Below, one piece after another: positions 11,458 through 27,629 of a DNA stretch of 64,000 bases (positions are counted from its first letter, which is position 1; each line of letters opens with the position of its first letter). The position numbers and the translations under genes are program-made. Source of the stretch: Cupriavidus respiraculi. Lineage in GTDB: Bacteria; Pseudomonadota; Gammaproteobacteria; Burkholderiales; Burkholderiaceae. The stretch lies in assembly GCF_914271545.1 (NCBI RefSeq), contig NZ_CAJZAH010000003.1, positions 248,001 to 312,000 on the forward strand, written 5' to 3'. A model generated the notes under the pieces. The model was not told where the DNA came from. It saw nothing but the letters and a program-made list of their open reading frames with translations, and did no database searches.

Positions 11458-11595
11458 ATGCCGTCGGGCGATCGCGCAGGCATGGCCGCCGACACAGATC
11501 GGTAACCGATAGAGCGGCCAAGTTTTCGACATCGCATGCGGCTCCCGCGGCCCATCCTTCGTGCTCCGGCCACCGGCTGCTACGAGTCCCTCCTT

Positions 11596-12591
11596 ATGCA
11601 AGAGCCATGCGATGCCTCATACAAATTGATGTTTTCGTCGCCAAAGATCGTCCGCGATCTGGTCAGGGGTTTCATCCCGGACGACTTGCTGCATAGCCTC
11701 GACTTTGCTTCACTGGAGAAGGTGCCGTGCAGCTACGTGACCGATCACCTGCGCCAGCGCGCTGGCGATGTCGTATGGCGGGTAAAGGTCGACGGGGAGG
11801 CGGCCTATCTCTATCTGGTGATCGAGTTCCAGCGCACGGTCGATCCGTTCATGGCGGTCAGGATCCAGACCTACGTCGGACTGCTGTATCAGAATCTCAT
11901 CCGTGCCGGCCAGGCGTTGCCGGGCCGTCGGCTTCCGCCGGTATTGCCGATCGTGATGTACAACGGCGCCGCGGGATGGACGGCGGCCACCGATATCGCG
12001 CATCTGATTCCGGGCATGTCGGCACTCTTGGTGCGTCATCGGCCCGGGCTTGCGTATCTGCTGCTCGATGAGAACCAATACAGCGACGACCAATTGGCAC
12101 GGATGGACAACCTGGTCGCGTGCATGATCCGTTTCCAGCGTGCACCGTTCGGCGCGGTGCTGTGCGAAGTGGTGGATCGGCTGATCGGGTTGCTGGATGA
12201 TGACGCCGAGCTGAAGCGCACCTTTGCGCTCTGGTTTAGGGCGGTAGTGTCGGTGCGCAGCGACCATGCCGTGTCGCTGCCAAAAATCGAGGACCTGAAG
12301 GAGCTACGAATGGTGATGGGTCAAAGCTTCGAAGAGTGGAAGCAGCAGTGCAGGATGGAAGGTCTCTGGGAAGGCCGGCAGGAAGGCCTCCAAGCGGGGC
12401 GCCAGGAAGGGCGACAGGAAGGCCGGCTCGAAGGCGAAGCGATGCTGTTGCAAAGAATGCTGACGCGCCGCTTCGGGGCGCTTCCGCAGCAGCTGGTCTG
12501 GAGAATCGAGTCGTCGCCCTTAGAGCAGATCGACGCGTGGGCCGATCGCTTGCTGACCGCAAGCACACTCGAGGAAGTGTTCGAGTCTTGA
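11596..12591 (+). CDS. Rpn family recombination-promoting nuclease / putative transposase
   Basis: 331 residues from the ATG at 11596 (MQEPCDASYKLMFSSPKIV), the usual Rpn/YhgA-type start; an in-frame ATG at 11536 would add 20 unrelated residues. Residues 1-200 match the PD-(D/E)XK nuclease fold of this family, with candidate catalytic D58 and E77-F78-Q79 (LVIEFQ). A C-terminal stretch of repeated EGRQEG-like units (about residues 260-285) is typical of the family. Rpn proteins are DNA endonucleases that promote RecA-independent recombination in E. coli. It stands alone between two terminators, and no second copy is in the window. Confidence 0.88.
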   Translation: MQEPCDASYKLMFSSPKIVRDLVRGFIPDDLLHSLDFASLEKVPCSYVTDHLRQRAGDVVWRVKVDGEAAYLYLVIEFQRTVDPFMAVRIQTYVGLLYQNLIRAGQALPGRRLPPVLPIVMYNGAAGWTAATDIAHLIPGMSALLVRHRPGLAYLLLDENQYSDDQLARMDNLVACMIRFQRAPFGAVLCEVVDRLIGLLDDDAELKRTFALWFRAVVSVRSDHAVSLPKIEDLKELRMVMGQSFEEWKQQCRMEGLWEGRQEGLQAGRQEGRQEGRLEGEAMLLQRMLTRRFGALPQQLVWRIESSPLEQIDAWADRLLTASTLEEVFES

Positions 12592-15294: not shown

Positions 15295-16254
15295 ATGAGC
15301 AAAAATCTGTCGCGACGTCGTCTGGGTCGTCCGCGCTTGTTGATCGTTGGATGCGGCGACGTGGGGACACGTTGCCTGCGCATGCTGTCGGCGCGTTTCC
15401 GCGTGTTCGCAGTCACCTCGCAGCCGGGTCGCCGCGCCGAACTGCGCGCGGCCGGCGGGGTGCCCCTGGTGGCGGACCTGGACCGGCCGGCCACGTTGTC
15501 GCGCCTGACCGGTCTCGCGGACCGGGTGCTCGACCTCGCGCCGCCGCCCGCACAGGGCGAGAAGGATCCGCGTACGCTGGCCCTGCTGCACGCGCTGCGC
15601 CGTACCGCCTGGCGTACCGCCGCTTGCGAACCCCGCATTCTACCCGAGGGGGCCAACCGCCGGCGCGGCCGCCGGACGGCCCGGCCGGCGCTGGTCTATG
15701 CCAGCACGTCGGGCGTCTATGGCGATCGGGGCGGCGCCCGGGTGGCCGAATCCCACCTGGTACGGCCGCAGACCGCCCGCGCGCGCCGCCGCGTGGCCGC
15801 CGAACAGGCGGTGCGCGGCTTTGGCGTGGCCAGCGGCTGGCGGGCCAGCATCCTGCGCGTTCCCGGCATCTATGCCGAGAACCGCCTGCCCACCGCGCGC
15901 CTGTCCAGGCGGACGCCGGCGCTGGTGCCGCAGGACGACGTGTACACCAACCATATCCACGCCCACGATCTCGCCCGCGCCATGATCGTGGCGCTGTTTC
16001 GCGGCCGGCCGCAGCGCGTGGTGCATGCCAGTGACGACTCCGAGCTGCGCATGGCCGATTACTTCGACCTGGTGGCGGACCGCCGCGGCCTGCCCCGGCC
16101 CCCGCGCCTGACGCGCGAGCAGGTGCGGCAGGCGGTGGAGCCGAATCTGCTCAGCTTCATGAGCGAGTCGCGCCGGCTGGACAACGCGCGCCTGAAGCGC
16201 GAACTGCGCCTGCGTCTGCGCTACCCGACCGTCGCATCCTTCTTCGATACCTGA
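15295..16254 (+). CDS. NAD-dependent epimerase/dehydratase family protein (atypical extended SDR)
   Basis: 319 residues starting MSKNLSRRRLGRPRLLIVGCGDVG. The Rossmann motif GCGDVG lies at about residues 19-24. YASTSGVYGDRGG is an SDR-like segment, but the usual YxxxK pair is not obvious, as in the YeeZ-like atypical group. The protein is unusually rich in Arg. A typical family role is sugar-nucleotide or quinone handling, but no specific function can be assigned. It is transcribed divergently from the ferredoxin-type reductase, and their control regions must overlap each other's coding sequence. Confidence 0.8.
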   Translation: MSKNLSRRRLGRPRLLIVGCGDVGTRCLRMLSARFRVFAVTSQPGRRAELRAAGGVPLVADLDRPATLSRLTGLADRVLDLAPPPAQGEKDPRTLALLHALRRTAWRTAACEPRILPEGANRRRGRRTARPALVYASTSGVYGDRGGARVAESHLVRPQTARARRRVAAEQAVRGFGVASGWRASILRVPGIYAENRLPTARLSRRTPALVPQDDVYTNHIHAHDLARAMIVALFRGRPQRVVHASDDSELRMADYFDLVADRRGLPRPPRLTREQVRQAVEPNLLSFMSESRRLDNARLKRELRLRLRYPTVASFFDT

Positions 16255-16304
16255 GGCCGTTCCGCGGCCGGTGGCATGGCGTTTGCGTAGCAGCACGCAC
16301 ACCG

Positions 16305-16320
16305 TTCCTGTCTATACAGC
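16305..16320 (-). promoter_or_regulatory. Putative HutC operator, distal copy
   Basis: On the minus strand it reads CTGTATAGACAGGAAC, identical over all 16 bases to the site before hutH (20106-20121). It lies 174 bases upstream of the second copy and in the opposite orientation. The core TGTATAGACA is nearly self-complementary, as expected for a GntR/HutC dimer. Confidence 0.65.
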
Positions 16321-16488
16321 ATCGCGCCGAAATGCCCGAGCCCGGTGCGGACGGCCGAATGCGGTGCCCGGGGCCATGCGCTCGCGCACCATCAGGGGGC
16401 GTTTTTCCGGCCTTGAGCGCGGTTCTGGTGCCGGGCAACAAGGCGACGGCCGGCTTAGGGGTTTGCCCGCAGCCAGCCTTTGCGCGCC

Positions 16489-16516
16489 TTGACTTGTATA
16501 TACAGGAACGTTAGAT
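16489..16516 (+). promoter_or_regulatory. Promoter of the transporter-hut operon
   Basis: TTGACT (16489-16494), 16-base spacer, TTAGAT (16511-16516). The operator-like sequence at 16494-16509 fills the whole spacer, so a bound repressor would block RNA polymerase. Confidence 0.6.
16494..16509 (+). promoter_or_regulatory. Putative HutC operator in the transporter promoter
   Basis: TTGTATATACAGGAAC differs by two bases from the other two copies. The core TGTATATACA is a perfect palindrome, matching the known preference of HutC-type repressors for TGTATA-like half-sites. It sits exactly between the -35 and -10 boxes. Confidence 0.75.
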
Positions 16517-16616
16517 TGCCCGGAAACGATCGGCGCCGCACGCATGGCGCCGCCACGACCGGGCGACCGGCCGCGCCAAGCGGCCTTCGTTCGCATCACG
16601 CCAAAGGAGCCTACAG

Positions 16617-17576
16617 ATGGGGATTCGCCTCGTTAGCGGTCTTGCGCGCACCGCGCTTGCCGCCGTCATCGTCGCCGCGGGAGCGGCGCATGCCCAGACC
16701 ACCGAAATCGCGCTGGGCATGAGCGGCTGGACCGGCTTCGCGCCACTGACGCTTGCCGACAAGGCGGGCATCTTCAAGAAGAACGGGCTCGATGTCTCGA
16801 TCAAGATGATCCCGCAGAAGGACCGGCACCTGGCGCTGGCCTCTGGCGCGATCCAGTGCGCCGCCACCACGGTCGAGACGCATGTGGCCTGGAACGCCAA
16901 CGGCGTGCCGATCACGCAGATCGTGCAGCTGGACAAGTCCTACGGCGCCGACGGTCTGGCCGTGCGCGCGGACGTGAAGTCCTTCGCCGACCTGAAGGGC
17001 AAGACGGTCGGCGTGGACGCGCCGGGCACCGCGCCTTACTTCGGGCTGGCCTGGATGCTGAAGAAGAACGGCATGTCCATCAAGGACGTCAAGACCACCA
17101 CGCTGTCGCCGCAGGCCGCCGCGCAGGCCTTCGTCTCGGGCCAGAACGATGCCGCGATGACCTACGAGCCGTACCTGTCGACGGTGCGCCAGAGCCCGGA
17201 CAAGGGCAAGATCCTCGCCACGACGCTGGACTACCCGATGGTGATGGACACGCTGGGCTGCGCCCCCAAGTGGCTCAAGGACAATCCCAAGGCCGCCCAG
17301 GCGCTGGTCGACAGCTATTTCGAGGCGCTCGACATGATCCGCAAGGAGCCGGCCAAGTCCAACGAGATCATGGGCGCGGCCGTCAAGCAGACCGGCGAGC
17401 AGTTCGCCAAGTCGGCGGCCTTCCTGCGCTGGCAGGACCGCGAGGCAAACCGCAAGTTCTTCGGCGGCGAGCTGGCCGCGTTCAGCAAGGAAGCGGCCGC
17501 CGTGCTGCTGGAAATCGGCGTGATCCGCCAGGTGCCCGATGTCACGGCCCTGTACGACGCGCGCTTTCTGAAGTAA
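16617..17576 (+). CDS. ABC transporter substrate-binding protein, NitT/TauT type, in the hut regulon
   Basis: 319 residues. Signal peptide of about 26 residues ending AHA|Q. The mature part is a SsuA/THI5-type periplasmic binding fold, with GMSGWTGFAPLTLADKAGIFKKNG, the VGVDAPGTAPYF lobe and NDAAMTYEPYL. Relatives bind sulfonates, nitrate or thiamine precursors. Here the promoter carries a HutC-like operator and the next genes are hutC and the hut enzymes, so histidine, urocanate or a related imidazole is the likely ligand. It lacks the lipobox seen in the liv binding protein. AAAGGAG precedes the ATG. Confidence 0.85.
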   Translation: MGIRLVSGLARTALAAVIVAAGAAHAQTTEIALGMSGWTGFAPLTLADKAGIFKKNGLDVSIKMIPQKDRHLALASGAIQCAATTVETHVAWNANGVPITQIVQLDKSYGADGLAVRADVKSFADLKGKTVGVDAPGTAPYFGLAWMLKKNGMSIKDVKTTTLSPQAAAQAFVSGQNDAAMTYEPYLSTVRQSPDKGKILATTLDYPMVMDTLGCAPKWLKDNPKAAQALVDSYFEALDMIRKEPAKSNEIMGAAVKQTGEQFAKSAAFLRWQDREANRKFFGGELAAFSKEAAAVLLEIGVIRQVPDVTALYDARFLK

Positions 17577-17592
17577 CCGGGATACCGCTGCC

Positions 17593-18468
17593 ATGACGCA
17601 AGCTCACATCGGCACCGGGCCGGCGACCCAGGCCCCCGCCGCGTCGACCGCCGCACCGGCGGTCGCACCGGCGCGGCGACGCCATCCGTGGCTGATGCCG
17701 CTGGTCGCGGTGTCGCCGCGCGCCCGCTGGGTGCTCGGCCTGTCGTTCTTCGTGCTGTTCTTCCTGCTGTGGGCCGCGGTCACGTTCGGCGGCCTGGTGC
17801 CGCGCACCTTCCTCGCCGATCCGCTGACCATGGCCAGGGAAGGGGTGCTGCTCTTTACCGAGTACAACTTCATCGCCGATATCGGCATGACGGTCTGGCG
17901 CGTGCTGGGCGGCTTCGTGCTGGCCGCGGTGCTGGCGGTGCCGCTGGGCATCTTCATGGGGGCGTACAAGGCGGCCGAGGCGTTCTTCGAGCCCTTCGTC
18001 TCGTTCTGCCGCTACCTCCCGGCGTCGGCATTCATCCCGCTGCTGATCCTGTGGGCGGGCATCGGCGAGACGCAGAAGCTGCTGGTGATCTTCATCGGCT
18101 CGTTCTTCCAGATCGTGCTGATGGTGGCCGTGACCGTGGGCAGCGCGCGCCGCGATCTGGTCGAGGCGGCCTATACGCTGGGCGCCAACAGCGCCGGCAT
18201 CGTCAAGCGCGTGCTGATTCCCGGCGCGGCGCCCGATATCGCGGAGATCCTGCGGCTGGTGCTGGGCTGGGCCTGGACCTATGTGATCGTGGCCGAACTG
18301 ATCGGCTCGTCCTCGGGCATCGGGCACATGATCACCGACAGCCAGGCGCTGCTCAATACCGGGCAGATCATCTTCGGCATCATCGTGATCGGCTGCATCG
18401 GCCTGATCTCGGACCTGCTGTTCAAGCTGGCCAACCAGCGCCTCTTTCCGTGGAGTTCGATCAAATGA
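17593..18468 (+). CDS. ABC transporter permease, NitT/TauT type
   Basis: 291 residues. A 45-residue Ala/Pro/Arg-rich cytoplasmic N terminus is followed by about six membrane spans. The permease EAA loop is visible as DLVEAAYTLGANSAGIVKRVLIPGAAPDI. It forms the homodimeric channel for the binding protein 16 bases upstream. Its stop overlaps the ATPase start as ATGA, so the two should be made together. Confidence 0.9.
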   Translation: MTQAHIGTGPATQAPAASTAAPAVAPARRRHPWLMPLVAVSPRARWVLGLSFFVLFFLLWAAVTFGGLVPRTFLADPLTMAREGVLLFTEYNFIADIGMTVWRVLGGFVLAAVLAVPLGIFMGAYKAAEAFFEPFVSFCRYLPASAFIPLLILWAGIGETQKLLVIFIGSFFQIVLMVAVTVGSARRDLVEAAYTLGANSAGIVKRVLIPGAAPDIAEILRLVLGWAWTYVIVAELIGSSSGIGHMITDSQALLNTGQIIFGIIVIGCIGLISDLLFKLANQRLFPWSSIK

Positions 18469-19244
18469 GTGCGCTGTCCATCCAGCAGGTCTCGCGTACC
18501 TTCGTCAACCCGAATGGCGGCCAGACCCAGGCTCTGCTGCCGGTCGACTTCGAGGTGCGCGACAACGACTTCGTCACCATCCTGGGCCCGTCCGGCTGCG
18601 GCAAGTCCACGCTGCTGCGCATCGTCGCGGGCCTCGATTCACCCACGTCCGGCCGGGTGCTGCTCGACGGCCAGCCTGTCGTCGGTCCCGGCGCGGACCG
18701 GGGCATGGTGTTCCAGTCGTACACGCTGTTTCCGTGGCTGACCATCGAGCAGAATGTCCGCTTCGGCCTGCGCGAGCGGGGCATGAGCGCGGCCGAGCAG
18801 CGCGAGCGCAGCGACTTCTTCATCCAGCGGGTGGGGCTGCGCGGCTTCGAGCAGCATTTCCCCAAGCAGCTCTCCGGCGGCATGCAGCAGCGCACGGCCA
18901 TCGCGCGGGCGCTGGCCAACGATCCGAAGATCCTGCTGCTGGACGAGCCGTTCGGCGCGCTGGACAACCAGACCCGCGTGCTGATGCAGGAACTGCTGCT
19001 CGGCATCTGGGAAGCGTCGCGCAAGACGGTGATGTTCGTCACGCACGATATCGACGAAGCCATCTTCATGGCGAACCGGGTTGCGGTATTCTCCGCGCGG
19101 CCGGGCCGCATCAAGAGCGAGATCGCGGTCGACTTTCCGCATCCGCGCCATTACACCATCAAGACCTCCCCGGAGTTTTCGCGGCTCAAGGCGCTGCTGA
19201 CCGAGGAGATCCGCGCCGAGGCGATGGCCTCGGCGGAGCACTGA
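18465..19244 (+). CDS. ABC transporter ATP-binding protein, NitT/TauT type
   Basis: 259 residues from the ATG at 18465, overlapping the permease stop. Walker [10 protein letters not shown] (about residues 43-51), Q-loop [12 protein letters not shown], signature [15 protein letters not shown], Walker [12 protein letters not shown] and the H-loop VTHDIDEA are intact. It closely follows the SsuB/TauB/NrtD plan. hutC begins six bases after its stop, placing the transporter and its presumed regulator in one transcript. Confidence 0.93.
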
Positions 19245-19249
19245 CCATC

Positions 19250-20029
19250 ATGACCACTGCCGCCGCGGCACGCCGCCCCACCTCCGCGCGCCACCCCCAG
19301 GACGCCACGCCCACTGCGCTGTACCAGCAGGTCAAGGAGTTCATCGCCCGCAATATCCAGAGCGGCGCGTGGCAACCCGGCGATCGCGTGCCGTCGGAGC
19401 AGGAGCTGGTGAGCCGCTTCGGCGTCTCGCGCATGACGGTCAACCGCGCGCTGCGCGAGCTGGCCGAGCAGGGCAGGGTGGTGCGGGTGGCCGGCGTCGG
19501 CACCTTCGTGGCCGAGCACAAGCCGCAATCGACGCTGCTGTCGGTGGTCAACCTGCAGGACGAGATCCGCATGCGCGGCCACGATTACGCCTGCGACGTG
19601 ATGCTGGTCGAGCGGGCAGCGGCCTCCATCGAGGTGGCGGCGGCGCTGGACCTGCGCACCGGCGAGTCGGTGTTCCACTCGGTGTGCGTGCATCGCGAGG
19701 ACGGCGTGCCGGTGCAACTGGAGGACCGCTACGTGAATCCGCGCGTCGCGCCCGACTTCATCAACCAGGACTTTGCCGGCGTCAAGCCGGGCGAATACTT
19801 GCTGCGCCATGTGCCCTACGATCAGGTGGAGCACGTGGTGGACGCGGTGGCGGCCACGGCCGAGCAGGCCGGCATGCTCGAGATGCCGGCCAGCCAGCCG
19901 TGCCTGCTGTTGACGCGGCGCACCTGGACAGCCGGCACGCCGGTGACCTTCGTACGCTGCCTGCATCCGGGCAACCGCTACCGGCTGGGCAGCCGCTTCC
20001 GCGCCGACGGCAACCCCGCGTTCGGCTAG
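19250..20029 (+). CDS. hutC: Histidine utilisation repressor, GntR/HutC family
   Basis: 259 residues. An N-terminal winged helix (about residues 22-90: [47 protein letters not shown]) is followed by a UTRA ligand-binding domain (about 105-250) with [23 protein letters not shown]. HutC represses hut genes and is released by urocanate in characterised species. It lies between the transporter and hutH. Matching operator sequences occur before both transcription units, so it probably controls its own expression too. Confidence 0.93.
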
Positions 20030-20105
20030 GCGCCGCCGCGCCCTGGCCGCCCATAAATCTGCTGCCGGCAGATGGCGTGGGCAAAACGAACTGGTTTAGA
20101 CTGAG

Positions 20106-20121
20106 CTGTATAGACAGGAAC
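20106..20121 (+). promoter_or_regulatory. Putative HutC operator before hutH
   Basis: CTGTATAGACAGGAAC, identical to the distal copy at 16305-16320 on the other strand. Its last bases (AGGA) are also the likely ribosome-binding site of hutH, whose ATG is at 20128. I could not place a confident -35/-10 pair here. Confidence 0.7.
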
Positions 20122-20127
20122 ATACAA

Positions 20128-21714
20128 ATGACAGCACACTCCAACGATTCCCGCTCCGCGACCCCAAGTCCCCTTCTGACGCTGGTGCCGGGCCAAGTCA
20201 CGTTGGCCGACCTGCGCCGCATCTACCGTGGCGAGGTCCGGCTGGCGATGGACGAATCCGCCTGGCCCGGCGTGCGCGCGGCGCAGGCCACGGTGCAGCA
20301 GATCATCGACACCGATGCCGTGGTCTACGGCATCAACACCGGCTTCGGCAAGCTGGCGCAGACGCGCATCCCGCATGACAAGCTGGCCGAACTGCAGCGC
20401 AATCTGGTGCTGTCGCACAGCGTCGGCACCGGGCCCGACCTGGCGCCGGACACCGTGCGGCTGATCCTGGCGATGAAGGCCGTCAGTCTTGCGCGCGGCC
20501 ACTCGGGCGTGCGGCCCGAACTGATCGAGGCGCTGCTCGCGCTGGTGAACCACGGCGTTACCCCGTGCATTCCGGCCAAGGGCTCGGTCGGCGCGTCCGG
20601 CGACCTGGCGCCGCTGGCGCATATGTCTTGCACGCTGATCGGCGTGGGCGAAGCGATGATCGACGGCCGCCGGGTGCCGGCCGCCGAAGGCATGGCGCAT
20701 GCCGGGCTGGACGTGTTCGCGCTGGGCCCCAAGGAAGGGCTCGCGCTGCTCAACGGCACGCAGGTTTCCACCGCGCTGGCGCTGGCTGGCCTGTTCGCCG
20801 CCGAGGACGCCTTCGCCGCCGGGCTGGTGGCCGGCGCGCTGTCGCTGGAGGCGATCAAGGGCTCGGTCAAGCCGTTCGATGCGCGCATTCACGATGCGCG
20901 GGGGCAGGCGGGGCAGATCGAGGTGGCCACGGCGGTGCGGGCGCTGCTGGACGGCAGCGAGATACTGGAATCGCACCAGACTTGCGGCCGCGTGCAGGAC
21001 CCGTATTCGATCCGCTGCCAGCCGCAGGTCATGGGCGCGTGCCTGGACAACCTGCGCCACGCCGCGCGCATCCTGCGCATCGAGGCCAATGCCGCCTCCG
21101 ACAATCCGCTGGTGTTCCCGCAGCAGGGCGATGTGGTCTCGGGCGGCAACTTCCACGCCGAGCCCGTGGCCTTCGCGGCCGACATCATCGCGCTCGCGCT
21201 GGCGGAGATCGGCGCCATTTCCGAACGCCGGCTGGCGCTGCTGCTCGATACCGGGCTGTCCGGCCTGCCGCCGTTCCTCGTGCGCGACGGCGGCCTGCAT
21301 TCGGGCTTCATGATCGCCCAGGTCACCGCGGCCGCGCTGGCCTCGGAGAACAAGTCGCTGGCGCATCCGGCCAGCGTGGACAGCTTGCCCACCTCCGCCA
21401 ACCAGGAGGACCATGTGTCGATGGCCACCTATGGCGCGCGCCGGCTGGGCGACATGGCACAGAACACCGCGGTGGTGGTCGGCATCGAGGCGATGGCCGC
21501 GGCGCAGGGCATCGAATTCCATCGGCCGCTGAAATCCTCGCCGCTGCTGGAGACCGAGCTTGCCCGCATTCGGGAACGCGTCGATTTCGTCGAAGGGGAC
21601 CGTTACCTCGCGCCGGATATCGAGGCGATGAAGCAATGGGTGGTGCAGGGCGACGCCGGCGCGGGATGGCCGCAGGCGGTGCGCGCGGTGCTGCCGACGC
21701 AGGTCGGGGTATAG
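20128..21714 (+). CDS. hutH: Histidine ammonia-lyase
   Basis: 528 residues. It deaminates histidine to urocanate, the first step of the pathway. The self-forming MIO cofactor triad Ala156-Ser157-Gly158 lies in [14 protein letters not shown]. Other family landmarks are [24 protein letters not shown] and NQEDHVSM. The N terminus is about 15 residues longer than usual, but no later ATG keeps the conserved [10 protein letters not shown] start, so 20128 is chosen. The ATG follows AGGAACATACAA, which overlaps the operator. Confidence 0.97.
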
Positions 21715-21813: not shown

Positions 21814-23529
21814 ATGAACGCCAACGAACAGCAATTCGCCCAGGCCGCACAACACGCCCGCGGCCGCCGCGAGATCCGCGCGCCGCACGGCACGCAGCTG
21901 CACTGCAAGAACTGGCTGATCGAAGCCGCCTATCGCATGATCCAGAACAACCTGGACCCGGACGTCGCCGAGCGGCCGCAGGACCTGGTGGTCTACGGCG
22001 GCATCGGCAAGGCCGCGCGCAACTGGGAATGCTTCGATGCCATCCTGGACAGCCTGCGCCGGCTCGGCGAGGACGAATCGCTGCTGGTGCAGTCGGGCAA
22101 GCCGGTGGGCATCTTCCGCACGCATGCCGACGCGCCGCGCGTGCTGATTGCCAATTCCAACCTCGTGCCGCACTGGGCCAACTGGGACAAGTTCAACGAA
22201 CTGGATCGCGCCGGCCTGATGATGTACGGCCAGATGACCGCGGGCTCGTGGATCTACATCGGCACGCAGGGCATCGTGCAGGGCACCTACGAGACCTTCG
22301 TCGAAGCCGGCCGCCAGCACTACGACGGCGATCTGGCCGGCAAGTGGATCCTGACCGCGGGCCTGGGCGGCATGGGCGGCGCGCAGCCGCTGGCCGGGGT
22401 GCTGGCGGGCGCGTGCGTGCTGGCGATCGAATGCCAGGAGTCGCGCATCGACTTCCGGCTGCGCACGCGCTATCTCGACAGGAAGGCCACCACCATCGAC
22501 GAGGCGCTCGCCATGATCGCGGAAGCCACGGCGAAGAAGGAGGCCATCTCGGTGGGGCTGCTGGGCAACGCCGCGCAGATCATGCCCGAGCTGGTCAAGC
22601 GCGCGCAGGCGGGCGGCATGCGCCCGGACCTGGTCACCGACCAGACCTCGGCCCACGACCTCGTCAACGGCTACCTGCCGGCGGGCTGGACCGTCGAGCA
22701 ATGGGAGGCCGCGCGGCAGTCGGACCCGAAGTCGGTCGAAGCCGCGGCGCGTCCCTCCATCGTGGAGCACGTGCGTGCCATGCTGGCCTTCCAGCAGATG
22801 GGCGTGCCCACGCTGGATTACGGCAACAATATCCGCCAGGTGGCGTTCGACGAGGGCGTGGCCAACGCGTTCGACTTCCCCGGCTTCGTGCCGGCCTATA
22901 TCCGGCCGCTGTTCTGCCGCGGCAAGGGTCCGTTCCGCTGGGTGGCGCTGTCCGGCGACCCGGAAGACATCTACAAGACCGACGCCAAGATGAAGGAGCT
23001 GTTCCCCGACGACAAGCCGCTGCACCGCTGGCTCGACATGGCGCGCGACCGCATCGCCTTCCAGGGCCTGCCGGCGCGGATCTGCTGGGTGGGACTGGAC
23101 GAGCGCCACCGCGCGGGGCTGGCCTTCAACGAGATGGTCAAGTCGGGCGAGCTGAAGGCGCCCATCGTCATCGGCCGCGACCACCTCGACTGCGGCTCGG
23201 TGGCGTCGCCCAACCGGGAGACCGAGGCCATGCGCGACGGCTCGGACGCGGTGTCGGACTGGCCGCTGCTCAATGCGCTGCTCAATACCGCCGGCGGCGC
23301 GACGTGGGTCAGCCTGCACCATGGCGGCGGCGTCGGCATGGGCTTCTCGCAGCATAGCGGCGTGGTCATCGTCTGCGACGGCACCGAGGCCGCGGCCCGC
23401 CGCATCGAGCGCGTGCTGTGGAACGACCCGGCCACCGGCGTGATGCGCCACGCCGATGCGGGCTATGACATCGCCATCGACTGCGCGCGCGAAAAGGGCC
23501 TGGATCTGCCGATGGTGAAGGGCGCATGA
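21814..23529 (+). CDS. hutU: Urocanate hydratase
   Basis: 571 residues from the ATG at 21814, preceded by AAGGAGATCCAG; an ATG at 21727 lies in the leader and is not used. It converts urocanate to imidazolonepropionate using tightly bound NAD. Visible motifs are the NAD region [13 protein letters not shown], the [16 protein letters not shown] stretch and the family motif [18 protein letters not shown] with the active-site cysteine. It overlaps hutD by four bases. Confidence 0.97.
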
Positions 23530-24125
23530 CGGCATCGCCCGCGCGATATTTCTCGCTGGCGGCGCTGACGCCTGCGCCCTGGAAGAACGGCGGCGGCGTG
23601 ACGCGCGAGATCGCCGCCATGCCGCAAGGCGCCGGCATGGGGGACTTCGACTGGCGCATCAGCGTGGCCGACATCGCGGCCGATGGTCCCTTTTCCGCGT
23701 ATCCCGGCATCGACCGGCAGATCGTGCTGCTCGAAGGCGCGGGCGTGCGCCTGCGCGCGGATGACGGCCGCTTCGACCATCGCCTGGACCGCGTGGGCGA
23801 GCCGTTCGCCTTCGCGGGCGAGGCCGGCGTGCACGCCAGCCTGCTCGACGGCCCGACGCGCGACTTCAACGTGATGACACGGCGCGGCCGTACGCGTGCC
23901 CGCGCGTGGTCGGTCCGGGAAGCCGTGGCCGTGCCCGGCGGGACGCAGGCCACCGTGATGCTGGTGATCGCCGGCGAGTGGCACGGCGACGTGCAGGCGT
24001 CCACGATGCCGATGCGCCCGGGCGACGGCCTGGTGCTCGGCCCCGGCGCGCCTCTGCATCTGCGGCCCGCGAGCGCCGAATCCCATTGCCTCCTCGTTAC
24101 CCTCGATCTGGACGCAACACCATGA
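23526..24125 (+). CDS. hutD: HutD family protein
   Basis: 199 residues, a cupin-type HutD protein. Family features are the start [47 protein letters not shown] and [14 protein letters not shown]. HutD is widespread in hut operons; in Pseudomonas fluorescens work it appeared to limit over-activity of the pathway, possibly by sensing formylglutamate, though its mechanism is unsettled. It overlaps hutU and hutI as ATGA on both sides. Confidence 0.92.
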
Positions 24126-25399
24126 CGCCATCCCCGAACGAAATGGCCGTGGCCGGCGCACCGTCGGCCGACGGCGTCTGGCATCGCTGCCATCTGCTAC
24201 CCGATGCCGACCCGGCGCGCGCCATCCGCGACGCGGCCCTGGTGGTCGAGCAGGGTCGGATTGCGTGGCTGGGACCGGAAGCCGAGCTGCCGCCCACCTA
24301 TGGCGCGCTGCCCCGGCACGACGCAGGCAATGCGTGGATCACGCCCGGCCTGGTCGACTGCCATACCCATCTGGTCTACGGCGGCCAGCGCGCCGACGAG
24401 TTCGCCATGCGGCTGGCCGGCGCGAGCTACGAGGAAATCGCGCGCGCCGGTGGCGGCATCGTGTCCACGGTGCGCGCCACGCGCGCCGCGGACGAGGACA
24501 CCCTGTTCGCGCAGGCGGCCAGCCGCCTTGCACCGCTGCTGGCCGAGGGCGTCTGCGCCATCGAGATCAAGTCCGGCTACGGGCTGGACCTGGACGCCGA
24601 GCGCAAGCAGCTGCGCGTGGCGCGCCGGCTGGGCCAGGCGTTCGGCGTGGCCGTGCATACCACTTTCCTGGGCGCCCATGCGCTGCCGCCCGAGTACGCC
24701 GGCCGCGCCGATGCGTATATCGATACGGTGTGCGACACCATGCTGCCCGCGCTGGCCGCCGAAGGGCTGGTCGATGCAGTCGATGCCTTCTGCGAATCCA
24801 TCGGCTTCTCGCCGGCGCAGACCGAGCGCGTGTTCGAGGCCGCGCGGCGGCACGGCCTGCCGGTCAAGCTGCATGCCGAGCAATTGAGCAATCTGGGCGG
24901 CGCCGCGCTGGCCGCGCGCCATCGCGCGTTGTCGGCCGACCATCTGGAGCATCTGGACGAGGACGGCGTGCGCGCCATGGCCGAGGCCGGCACGGTGGCC
25001 GTGCTGCTGCCGGGCGCCTACTATTTCCTGCGCGATACGCATCTGCCGCCGCTGGACCTGCTGCGTCGGCACGGCGTGCCGATCGCGATCTCGACCGACC
25101 ACAACCCCGGCACGTCTCCCGTCACTTCGCTGCTGCTGATGATGAACATGGCCTGCACGCTGTTCCGCATGACCGTCCCGGAGGTGCTGGCTGGCGTCAC
25201 GGTCCATGCCGCGCGCGCGCTCGGCGCGGCAGACCGCCATGGCGTCCTCGCGGTGGGCCGCGCCGCCGATTTCGCGGCCTGGAACGTGCAATCGCCGGCC
25301 GAACTGGCCTACTGGTTCGGCCGCAACCCGCTCGCCGTGGCGGTGCGGCAGGGCCGCGTGTTTCCCGCGGCCGCCGCCGGGCAAGGAGAGCGCCGATGA
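24122..25399 (+). CDS. hutI: Imidazolonepropionase
   Basis: 425 residues. Amidohydrolase-fold enzyme opening imidazolonepropionate to formiminoglutamate. Metal ligands are visible in [10 protein letters not shown], the later KLHAEQLSN and [11 protein letters not shown]. The substrate region [12 protein letters not shown] is intact. A 20-residue N-terminal extension precedes the conserved core. It overlaps hutD before it and hutF after it as ATGA, so hutU-D-I-F form one tightly coupled block. Confidence 0.97.
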
Positions 25400-26778
25400 G
25401 CGACAACCACCTGTTCGCGCCGCAGGCGCTGCTGCCTTCGGGCTGGGCCCGCGACGTGCTGCTCGCCTGGGACACCGAGGGCGTGCTGACCATCGTCCAA
25501 CCGGAAGCCCGGCCGCCGGCGCACGTCGACCGTGCGGCGGGCCCGGTGCTGCCGGGCATGCCGAACCTGCATTCGCATGCGTTCCAGCGCGGCTTCGCGG
25601 GGCTGACCGAATACCGCAGCGCCGCCGACGACTCGTTCTGGAGCTGGCGCGACCTGATGTACCGCTTCGCGCTGCGGCTCTCGCCCGATACGCTGGAGGC
25701 CATCGCCACGCAGCTCTATGTCGAGATGCTGCGCGCGGGCTATACCAGCGTGTGCGAGTTCCAGTACGTGCATCACGATCCCGCGGGCAAGCCCTATGCC
25801 GATCCCGCCGAGATGTCGCTGCGGCTGCTGCGCGCGGCCGAACGCACCGGCATCGGCATCACGCTGCTGCCGGTGCTGTACCAGGCGTCCGGCTTCGGCG
25901 GCCAGGCGCCGCAGGACAATCAACGGCGCTTCCTGCACGACACCGACGCGATGCTGGCCTTGCTGTCCCGTCTGGCGCCGCTGTGCACGGGCAGGGCGCG
26001 GCTCGGGCTGGCTCCGCATTCCCTGCGCGCAGTGCCGCGCGAAAGCCTGCAGGCGGCGGTGGCGGGACTGCACCGGCTCGACGCGACGGCGCCGGTGCAT
26101 ATCCATATCGCCGAGCAGCAGCGCGAGGTCGACGAGTGCATCGCCTGGTCGGGCACGCGCCCGGTCGCATGGCTGCTCGATCATGCCGAGGTCGATGCAC
26201 GCTGGTGCCTGGTGCACGCGACGCATATGGATTGGGACGAGCGCCGCCGCCTCGCCCACAGCGGGGCGGTGGCCGGCATCTGCCCGACCACGGAGGCCAA
26301 CCTGGGCGACGGCGTGTTCGATGCCGCGCCGTATCTGGCGCAGGCCGGCGCCTGGGGTATCGGCTCGGACAGCCATGCCAGCGTCAGCGTGGCCGAGGAA
26401 CTGCGGCTGTTCGAGTATGGCCAGCGGCTGGCGCTGCAAAAGCGCAATGTGCTCGCGTCCGATACCGACCCGCAGGTGGCCGACCGGCTCTATCACGATG
26501 CGGTGGCCGGCGGGGCGCGCGCCGCCGGGCGTCCGGTGGCGGGCCTCGCCGCCGGGCAACAGGCCGATTTCGTCGTGCTCGACGGCTCCCATCCCGCGCT
26601 TGCCGGGCTGTCCGGCGCGCAGGCGCTGGCTGTCCACGTCTTCACCAATCACGGGCATGAGACACTAGCGCAGGTCCGCACCGCCGGGCGCGTGCGCGTG
26701 CACCACGGCGCCCACGCCCTGCAGGCCGAGGCCGGCCGCGCGTTCGCCGCCGCCCGCGCCAGCCTGCTTGCCGACTGA
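25396..26778 (+). CDS. hutF: Formimidoylglutamate deiminase
   Basis: 460 residues. Amidohydrolase of the HutF group, converting formiminoglutamate to N-formylglutamate and ammonia. Metal-binding motifs [32 protein letters not shown] and GSDSHASVS are all present. Its presence with hutG shows the five-step route through formylglutamate, rather than the four-step formiminoglutamase route. Start ATG at 25396 lies inside the hutI stop, with AGGAGAG upstream. Confidence 0.96.
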
Positions 26779-26810
26779 TCCTACAAGCTGCTACCCACGA
26801 CAGACCCGCA

Positions 26811-27629
26811 ATGACGTCTTTCTCTACCGATACCCCGCCCTTCGTGTTCCATCGCGGCACCCGCCCGCTACTGGTGTCGATGCCCCATGTCGGCACCTAC
26901 CTGCCCGCTGCGGTCGCCGGCCGCCTGACCGCCGAGGCGCGCACCGTGCCGGACACCGACTGGCATCTTGAGCGCCTGTATGGCTTCGCGAAGGAGCTGG
27001 GCGCATCCATCCTGGTGGCCACGCATTCGCGCTATGTGGTCGACCTGAACCGCCCCCCCGACAACGCCAACCTGTATCCGGGGCAGGACACCACCGGCTT
27101 GTGCCCGGTCGATACGTTCGACAAGACGCCGTTGTACGCGGACGGCAGCTCCGGCCCCGACGAAGCGGAGATCTTCGCGCGCCGGGACGCGATCTGGCGG
27201 CCGTACCATGCGGCGCTGGCCGAAGAACTGGCGCGGCTGCGCGCCGAGCACGGCACGGTGGCGTTGTGGGACGCGCATTCGATCCGCTCGCAGCTGCCGC
27301 GCTTCTTCGAGGGCAAGCTGCCCGACTTCAACCTCGGCACGGCCAACGGCGCGAGCTGCGACGCGGCGCTGGGCGAGCGCATGCTGGAGCTGGCCAACGC
27401 CGCGCCCGGCTATACCGCGGTGCTCAACGGCCGCTTCAAGGGCGGCTATATCACGCGCCAGTACGGCCAGCCGGCGCAAGGCGTGCAGGCGGTGCAACTG
27501 GAACTGGCCCAGTCGGCGTACATGAGCGAGACGTACCCGTTCGCCTACGACGAGGCATTGGCGACGCGGCTGCAACCCACGCTGCGGGCCATGCTGGCCA
27601 CCATGCTGGAGTACGTCGAAGCCCGCTGA
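26811..27629 (+). CDS. hutG: N-formylglutamate deformylase
   Basis: 272 residues. Hydrolyses N-formylglutamate to glutamate and formate, the last hut step. FGase family motifs are SMPHVGTYLP, DTDWHLERLYGFA, VVDLNRPPDN, LWDAHSIRSQLPR and GRFKGGYITRQYG. It starts 32 bases after hutF, and a strong terminator follows, closing the cluster. Confidence 0.96.
   Translation: MTSFSTDTPPFVFHRGTRPLLVSMPHVGTYLPAAVAGRLTAEARTVPDTDWHLERLYGFAKELGASILVATHSRYVVDLNRPPDNANLYPGQDTTGLCPVDTFDKTPLYADGSSGPDEAEIFARRDAIWRPYHAALAEELARLRAEHGTVALWDAHSIRSQLPRFFEGKLPDFNLGTANGASCDAALGERMLELANAAPGYTAVLNGRFKGGYITRQYGQPAQGVQAVQLELAQSAYMSETYPFAYDEALATRLQPTLRAMLATMLEYVEAR

Follow-up and report, generated by a model that had tools for sequence, protein, structure and literature searches.

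Why does the histidine uptake operon of Cupriavidus respiraculi carry two copies of what appears to be one repressor's binding site? The locus lies in a stretch of 64,000 nucleotides (nt) of contig NZ_CAJZAH010000003.1 (assembly GCF_914271545.1, positions 248,001 to 312,000; hereafter the window), in which an epimerase-like gene is followed by an intergenic stretch with two operators, the uptake genes (16617-19244), hutC, a third operator, and the catabolic genes hutH through hutG of histidine utilization (hut). A first-pass annotation ascribed all three sites to the repressor HutC and suggested that the upstream pair could allow DNA looping. Our analysis instead reads the apparently spare site as a sign of a second, nitrogen-type promoter for the uptake-hutC operon. 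The regulon probably consists of one repressor and three promoters, with a separate operator at each: a sigma-54 type and a sigma-70 type promoter for the uptake-hutC operon and a third promoter for hutH.

Three candidate HutC operators in a compact histidine regulon

The three sites are as follows.

16304-16319, minus strand: distal operator O1, a candidate HutC operator with no mismatches to CTGTATAGACAGGAAC; core TGTCTATACA at 16309-16318.
16494-16509, plus strand: proximal operator O2, a candidate HutC operator with two mismatches; core TGTATATACA at 16495-16504, within the spacer of promoter P2.
20106-20126, plus strand: hutH operator O3, with no mismatches in the 16-mer at 20106-20121; core TGTATAGACA at 20107-20116; possible third half-site TACA at 20123-20126.

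When up to three mismatches are allowed, CTGTATAGACAGGAAC has exactly three matches in the window, compared with a mean of 0.07 and a maximum of 2 in dinucleotide shuffles of the same DNA (0 of 100 shuffles reach 3), such that the identical pair and the two-mismatch copy reported in the first-pass annotation are real. The coordinates given there for the second and third sites (16494-16509 and 20106-20121) are right, and those for the first, given as 16305-16320, were one base too high. Only two exact copies of the 12-bp core CTGTNTANACAG exist in the 5.59-Mb genome, both in this cluster, and the copy at 16494 differs from it by one mismatch. Weaker matches are not enriched: one mismatch to CTGTNTANACAG yields 17 places genome-wide versus 40 for the reversed control pattern, and the 16-mer with up to three mismatches yields 11 matches versus 21 for its control. 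The hutU-hutG stretch holds no further operator at either of these stringencies (16-mer with up to three mismatches, 12-bp core with one).

The O2 core matches the published HutC consensus, TGTA-N2-TACA (PMC12977541), exactly, and the O1 and O3 cores each depart from it by one mismatch (TGTATAGACA and its mirror). An asymmetric 16-bp operator that includes GGAAC was rejected: this pentamer comes after the core at 16 of 34 hutH operators, at 1 of 34 proximal operators (that of the window), and, mirrored, at 3 of 33 distal operators. On these counts, the AAC that ends the 16-mer does not belong to the site in general.

To assess conservation, we searched 35 genomes of the same genus with HutC and fetched 33 for comparison of the locus. 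The uptake genes, hutC, and hutH occur in the same order in 32 of these 33 relatives, and all three operator sites are likewise found in 32, which is the conservation that the first-pass annotation had proposed to look for. The 33rd relative (locus L070, genome G015) lacks the uptake genes as well as O1 and the sigma-54 motif described below; it retains TTGACC and O2 upstream of hutC, the site before hutH, and the gene upstream of the cluster. Nine further genomes of the genus, kept out of forming the sigma-54 idea, all contain both the distal and the proximal operators. Given the fit to the consensus, the adjacent hutC gene, and the conservation of the sites, we take all three to be, in all likelihood, operators for HutC, which agrees with the HutC regulon published from comparative genomics (PMC5343134) and with the initial reading of a compact histidine regulon.

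A sigma-54 type motif accompanies the distal operator

The two operators upstream of the uptake genes adjoin putative promoters of different types.

16272-16286, plus strand: sigma-54 type -24/-12 motif TGGCATGGCGTTTGC, the putative promoter P1 of the uptake-hutC operon; scores 14/14; the window has no other exact TGGCAY-N5-TTGC.
16489-16517, plus strand: sigma-70 type promoter P2, with TTGACT (16489-16494), a 17-nt spacer, and TAGATT (16512-16517).

Promoters of the sigma-54 class carry GG at -24 and GC at -12, in the context TGGCAY-N5-TTGC. The O1 core lies 22 nt downstream of the motif. Transcription from P1 would be expected to start near 16298, which would place O1 at about +12 to +21. 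We scored -24/-12 elements on a 14-point scale in the 60 nt upstream of each operator. Upstream of O1, the score is at least 12 in 32 of 33 loci (the window and 32 relatives), and for none of these 32 did more than 1 of 300 dinucleotide-shuffled versions of the stretch reach the observed score; upstream of O2 and of O3, the same scoring finds the motif in 0 of 33 loci each. All nine held-out genomes score at least 13 upstream of O1. As a positive case, the scoring recovers a 14/14 sigma-54 site upstream of amtB in all nine complete loci of the genus. The distance from motif to operator core is 19 to 25 nt (12 to 13 nt in three loci), such that the operator falls around or just after the expected start. 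The genome contains rpoN (TIGR02395, 483.3 bits; cutoff, 277.35) and also encodes NtrC.

Promoter P2 is organized differently. As the first-pass annotation had it, the operator core fills the -35/-10 spacer, here between TTGACT and TAGATT, and TTGACT adjoins O2 in the window and in the 32 relatives with a distal site (L070 has TTGACC, and G233, one of the nine held-out genomes, has neither).

Two other explanations of O1 can be judged from these data. O1 is an inverted repeat and lies about 50 nt past the stop codon of the epimerase gene, as would suit a transcription terminator or end-of-gene signal of that gene; yet it shares its sequence with the other two sites, is followed by no T-run, is kept in 32 of the 33 relatives, and is absent from L070, which has the upstream gene but no uptake genes. 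We consider this explanation hardly credible.

The second holds that a HutC tetramer loops the DNA between O1 and O2 and that the sigma-54 motif is incidental. Both sites are conserved in 32 of the 33 relatives, HutC of Pseudomonas is described as forming higher oligomers on DNA (PMC12977541), and the distances between the sites show a weak phase at a period of 11.0 bp (R = 0.45; Rayleigh P of about 0.025, uncorrected for the three periods examined). The O1-O2 distance, however, ranges from 78 to 234 bp among 41 loci of the genus (18 distinct distances), the phase is weaker at 10.0 bp (R = 0.38; P of about 0.07) and at 10.5 bp (R = 0.28; P of about 0.24), again uncorrected, and O1 has the motif beside it in 32 of 33 loci of the genus, in all nine held-out genomes, and, outside the genus, in 16 of 22 loci. 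Looping between 16304 and 16494, as first proposed, is thereby weakened and in our judgment unlikely; O1 is better explained by its place beside a conserved sigma-54 motif, although looping and promoter-specific repression can coexist.

The pairing outside the genus

A scan of named genomes supplied 45 loci that we treated as outside the genus, mostly from Acidovorax, Paracidovorax, Variovorax, Curvibacter, Polaromonas, and their relatives, the named genera being ones that we take to belong to the Comamonadaceae. The transporter is matched in 42 of the 45, 41 of which have enough upstream sequence for comparison. With up to two mismatches allowed, a distal operator is present in 22 of these 41 loci and missing from 19, and a sigma-54 motif lies within 60 nt of it in 16 of the 22; as controls, the motif is found upstream of 0 of 40 proximal operators and 0 of 24 hutH operators. 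Motif and distal operator are associated (16 of 22 versus 5 of 19; Fisher P = 0.005, kinship not corrected for), and in random 600-nt stretches of the same loci, the score is reached in 74 of 1,800. The sigma-54 motif and the distal operator have thus stayed paired across Cupriavidus and in some of the outside loci.

Among 200 sampled genomes of the family, the transporter had no match at an E value of 1e-60 or lower in 178, and all 22 genomes with a match belong to this genus; the outside loci nonetheless hold transporter forms that are 60 to 81% identical. Four Acidovorax loci (L220, L226, L227, and L230) have the sigma-54-like sequence TGGCCCGCAATTTGC upstream of the uptake genes and no distal HutC operator after it.

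The hutH operator and a possible third half-site

The first-pass annotation also observed that the operator before hutH covers the ribosome-binding site and suggested that repression could act on the start of translation. The overlap exists in the window, where O3 overlaps AGGA (20116-20119), 8 nt before the ATG at 20128. An adjoining ATG is found in 19 of 34 genus loci; because the first ATG is 29 to 97 nt from the start of the core in the other 15, the overlap is not a conserved feature. HutC moreover belongs to a DNA-binding family, and the proposed action on translation finds no support. The overlap is better seen as a by-product of the operator overlapping the promoter.

What is constant at O3 is a TACA at a fixed +16 from the core, present at all 34 hutH operators of the genus. 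The same spacing recurs at eight operators before hutU in other loci, four from another genus (L136 and L146 to L148) and four from this one (L076, L077, L150, and L155). Elsewhere, TACA at +16 appears in 1 of 210 operator readings (both strands) from the 45 outside loci, in 0 of 33 distal sites, and in 1 of 33 proximal sites. We read the TACA at 20123-20126 as a possible third HutC half-site of this lineage, although it may instead be a lineage-specific promoter element. The HutC-bound hutF promoter of Pseudomonas SBW25 is described with three half-sites and a second, NtrC-like site (Pntr) (PMC12977541). CATACAA, which lies downstream of O3, was considered as a possible -10 box; this was set aside in view of that three-half-site operator and of the identical spacing at the eight hutU operators.

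Two departures from the usual arrangement were seen within the genus. In L155 (genome G233), hutU directly follows hutC, no hutH match lies between them, an operator stands before hutU, and the proximal promoter is without TTGAC. In L076, L077, and L150 (genomes G002, G030, and G189), a second HutC relative with 51 to 55% identity is located directly before a hutU-like gene and has its own operator, including the TACA at +16.

GGTGC elements downstream of O1

Between P1 and P2 lie two further short elements.

16344-16348, plus strand: GGTGC, an NtrC-like half-site.
16363-16367, plus strand: GGTGC, an NtrC-like half-site.

GGTGC occurs between the two promoters 1.61 times per region in the genus, versus 0.28 in shuffles, with at least one copy in 40 of 41 regions, and it stands at +34 or +35 from the O1 core in 22 of the 41. 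Outside the genus, GGTGC or GGTGT lies 10 to 25 nt after the distal core in 15 of 22 loci. Results for a full NtrC palindrome downstream of O1 are mixed (22 of 41 regions beat their own shuffles at the 0.05 level), for which reason we claim only the GGTGC element. A search for the NtrC-type pattern covered the DNA between a point 350 nt upstream of O1 and the start of the transporter genes; in 32 of 33 loci the best match lies past the start of the O1 core, on its downstream side, with a single tie. An enhancer placed downstream of its promoter is unusual, and at amtB in this genus, NtrC-like palindromes (10 to 11 of 12 letters) lie 225 to 350 nt before the 14/14 sigma-54 motif in all nine complete loci.

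We advance only tentatively, as a possibility that we consider rather doubtful, that the sigma-54 promoter, O1, and the GGTGC(A) just downstream form a composite module, in which an NtrC-type activator would act from downstream or HutC would itself occupy the NtrC-like element, much as HutC is reported to bind an NtrC-like site (Pntr) at a hutF promoter of Pseudomonas (PMC12977541). If so, urocanate and nitrogen signals would act in competition within a single short segment of DNA.

A model of the regulon and the points that weigh against it

From the arrangement and co-occurrence of sites and motifs, we infer the following course of events. When urocanate is absent, HutC would occupy all three operators, blocking polymerase or early elongation; urocanate would release it, opening the sigma-70 promoter of the uptake-hutC operon and the hutH promoter. 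P1 would fire only with an active enhancer-binding protein, most likely NtrC, so that under nitrogen limitation the sigma-54 promoter would add to uptake and repressor expression, raising both further. Since hutC lies downstream of both P1 and P2, HutC would also repress its own synthesis, a feedback.

Several observations weigh against this model. Regarding the motif itself, an exact match in 64 kb is unsurprising on its own (0.4 expected in shuffles), and as a single such match is not improbable, the case rests on conservation. The relatives are non-independent samples, however, and L069 has O1 and no recognizable sigma-54 motif. The weights of the 14-point score are our own, applied to the general sigma-54 consensus; the NtrC-type pattern likewise follows a general consensus, and the predicted start the usual spacing from -12. 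Outside the genus, 6 of the 22 loci with a distal operator have no motif, and 5 of the 19 without the operator still score at least 13 somewhere in the wider upstream stretch. Under a stricter definition of the operator (one mismatch, 600-nt window), the association weakens to 13 of 17 versus 9 of 24 (P = 0.025), in part because a two-mismatch operator comes after the motif in four Variovorax/Xenophilus loci; the two-mismatch definition was itself adopted after loci of this kind had been inspected. Upstream of P1, the usual place, the search yielded no NtrC-type site, and at hutH, no convincing -35 element or clean sigma-70 promoter was found by eye.

Relation to known HutC systems

HutC control of the hut genes and of a predicted ATP-binding cassette (ABC) uptake system, HisXYZ, is already predicted for this group: the comparative-genomic account of the regulon places HutC with these genes in Comamonadaceae, Ralstonia, and Rhizobiales (PMC5343134). 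The gene order and operators described here fit that account, and the RegPrecise site lists may already include the three sites in part or in full. The main text of the account contains "rpon" and "sigma" zero times, and the passages on NtrC that were covered name no hut genes; that the distal operator goes together with a sigma-54 motif is our addition to the regulon as set out there.

A second parallel is Pseudomonas, for which NtrC control of hut has been reported (PMC8871633) and the HutC footprint at hutU is described as overlapping the sigma-54 target site (PMC12977541). Going by these accounts, the two systems share the TGTA-N2-TACA operator, a HutC site near a sigma-54 site, and an NtrC-like element, and possibly also the half-site triplet. 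In Pseudomonas, however, the sigma-54 promoter belongs to hutU and the NtrC sites lie far upstream, whereas here the motif is found on the uptake-hutC operon, a sigma-70 type promoter with its own operator stands behind it, and the NtrC-like elements are downstream of the motif.

In the open-license literature that we searched, we found no description of a two-promoter, two-operator layout with a sigma-54 unit on the uptake-hutC operon. The predicted outcome, rpoN-dependent and HutC-repressed uptake, concerns a group in which hut regulation has been predicted and for which no dissection was found in the literature covered. Natural comparisons are offered by the L070 lineage, without uptake genes, O1, or motif, and by those outside loci (19 of 41) that have no distal site.

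The repressor gene and its surroundings

The genes of the locus are as follows.

Ending at 16254: epimerase-like gene, upstream of the histidine cluster.
16617-17576, plus strand: ABC transporter substrate-binding protein (NMT1/THI5-like; PF09084, 77.7 bits), a HisX-type uptake component by context.
17593-18468, plus strand: ABC transporter permease (PF00528).
18465-19244, plus strand: ABC transporter ATPase (PF00005).
19250-20029, plus strand: hutC, GntR/UTRA repressor (TIGR02018, 315.1 bits; cutoff, 220; PF00392 and PF07702).
20128-21714, plus strand: hutH, encoding histidine ammonia-lyase, at the head of the catabolic operon (TIGR01225, 686.1 bits; cutoff, 539.15).
21814-27629, plus strand: hutU, hutD, hutI, hutF, and hutG, in that order.

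HutC exceeds the curated cutoff of TIGR02018 but falls below that of a second model, NF011575 (265.7 versus 424). Could the sites be bound mainly by another GntR/HutC-like repressor? The genome encodes a HutC paralogue with 41% identity (G000:C1:67264-67983), upstream of which is a near-identical operator, TTGTCTATACAG (C1:68205-68216), and the same site is present in L078. Against this, hutC lies inside the operon next to the sites in all 33 fetched relatives, and the neighbors of the paralogue, judged by eye, resemble thiolase and tripartite-transport receptor genes, not hut genes. We regard control mainly by another repressor as very improbable; cross-binding between the paralogue and HutC is possible.

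For the substrate-binding gene (16617-17576), SsuA-type NCBIfam models (sulfonate/taurine type) match only below their cutoffs, and no family model names the substrate. Farther upstream of the histidine cluster, the window contains a gene of the YhgA-like putative transposase family (PF04754) at 11536-12591.

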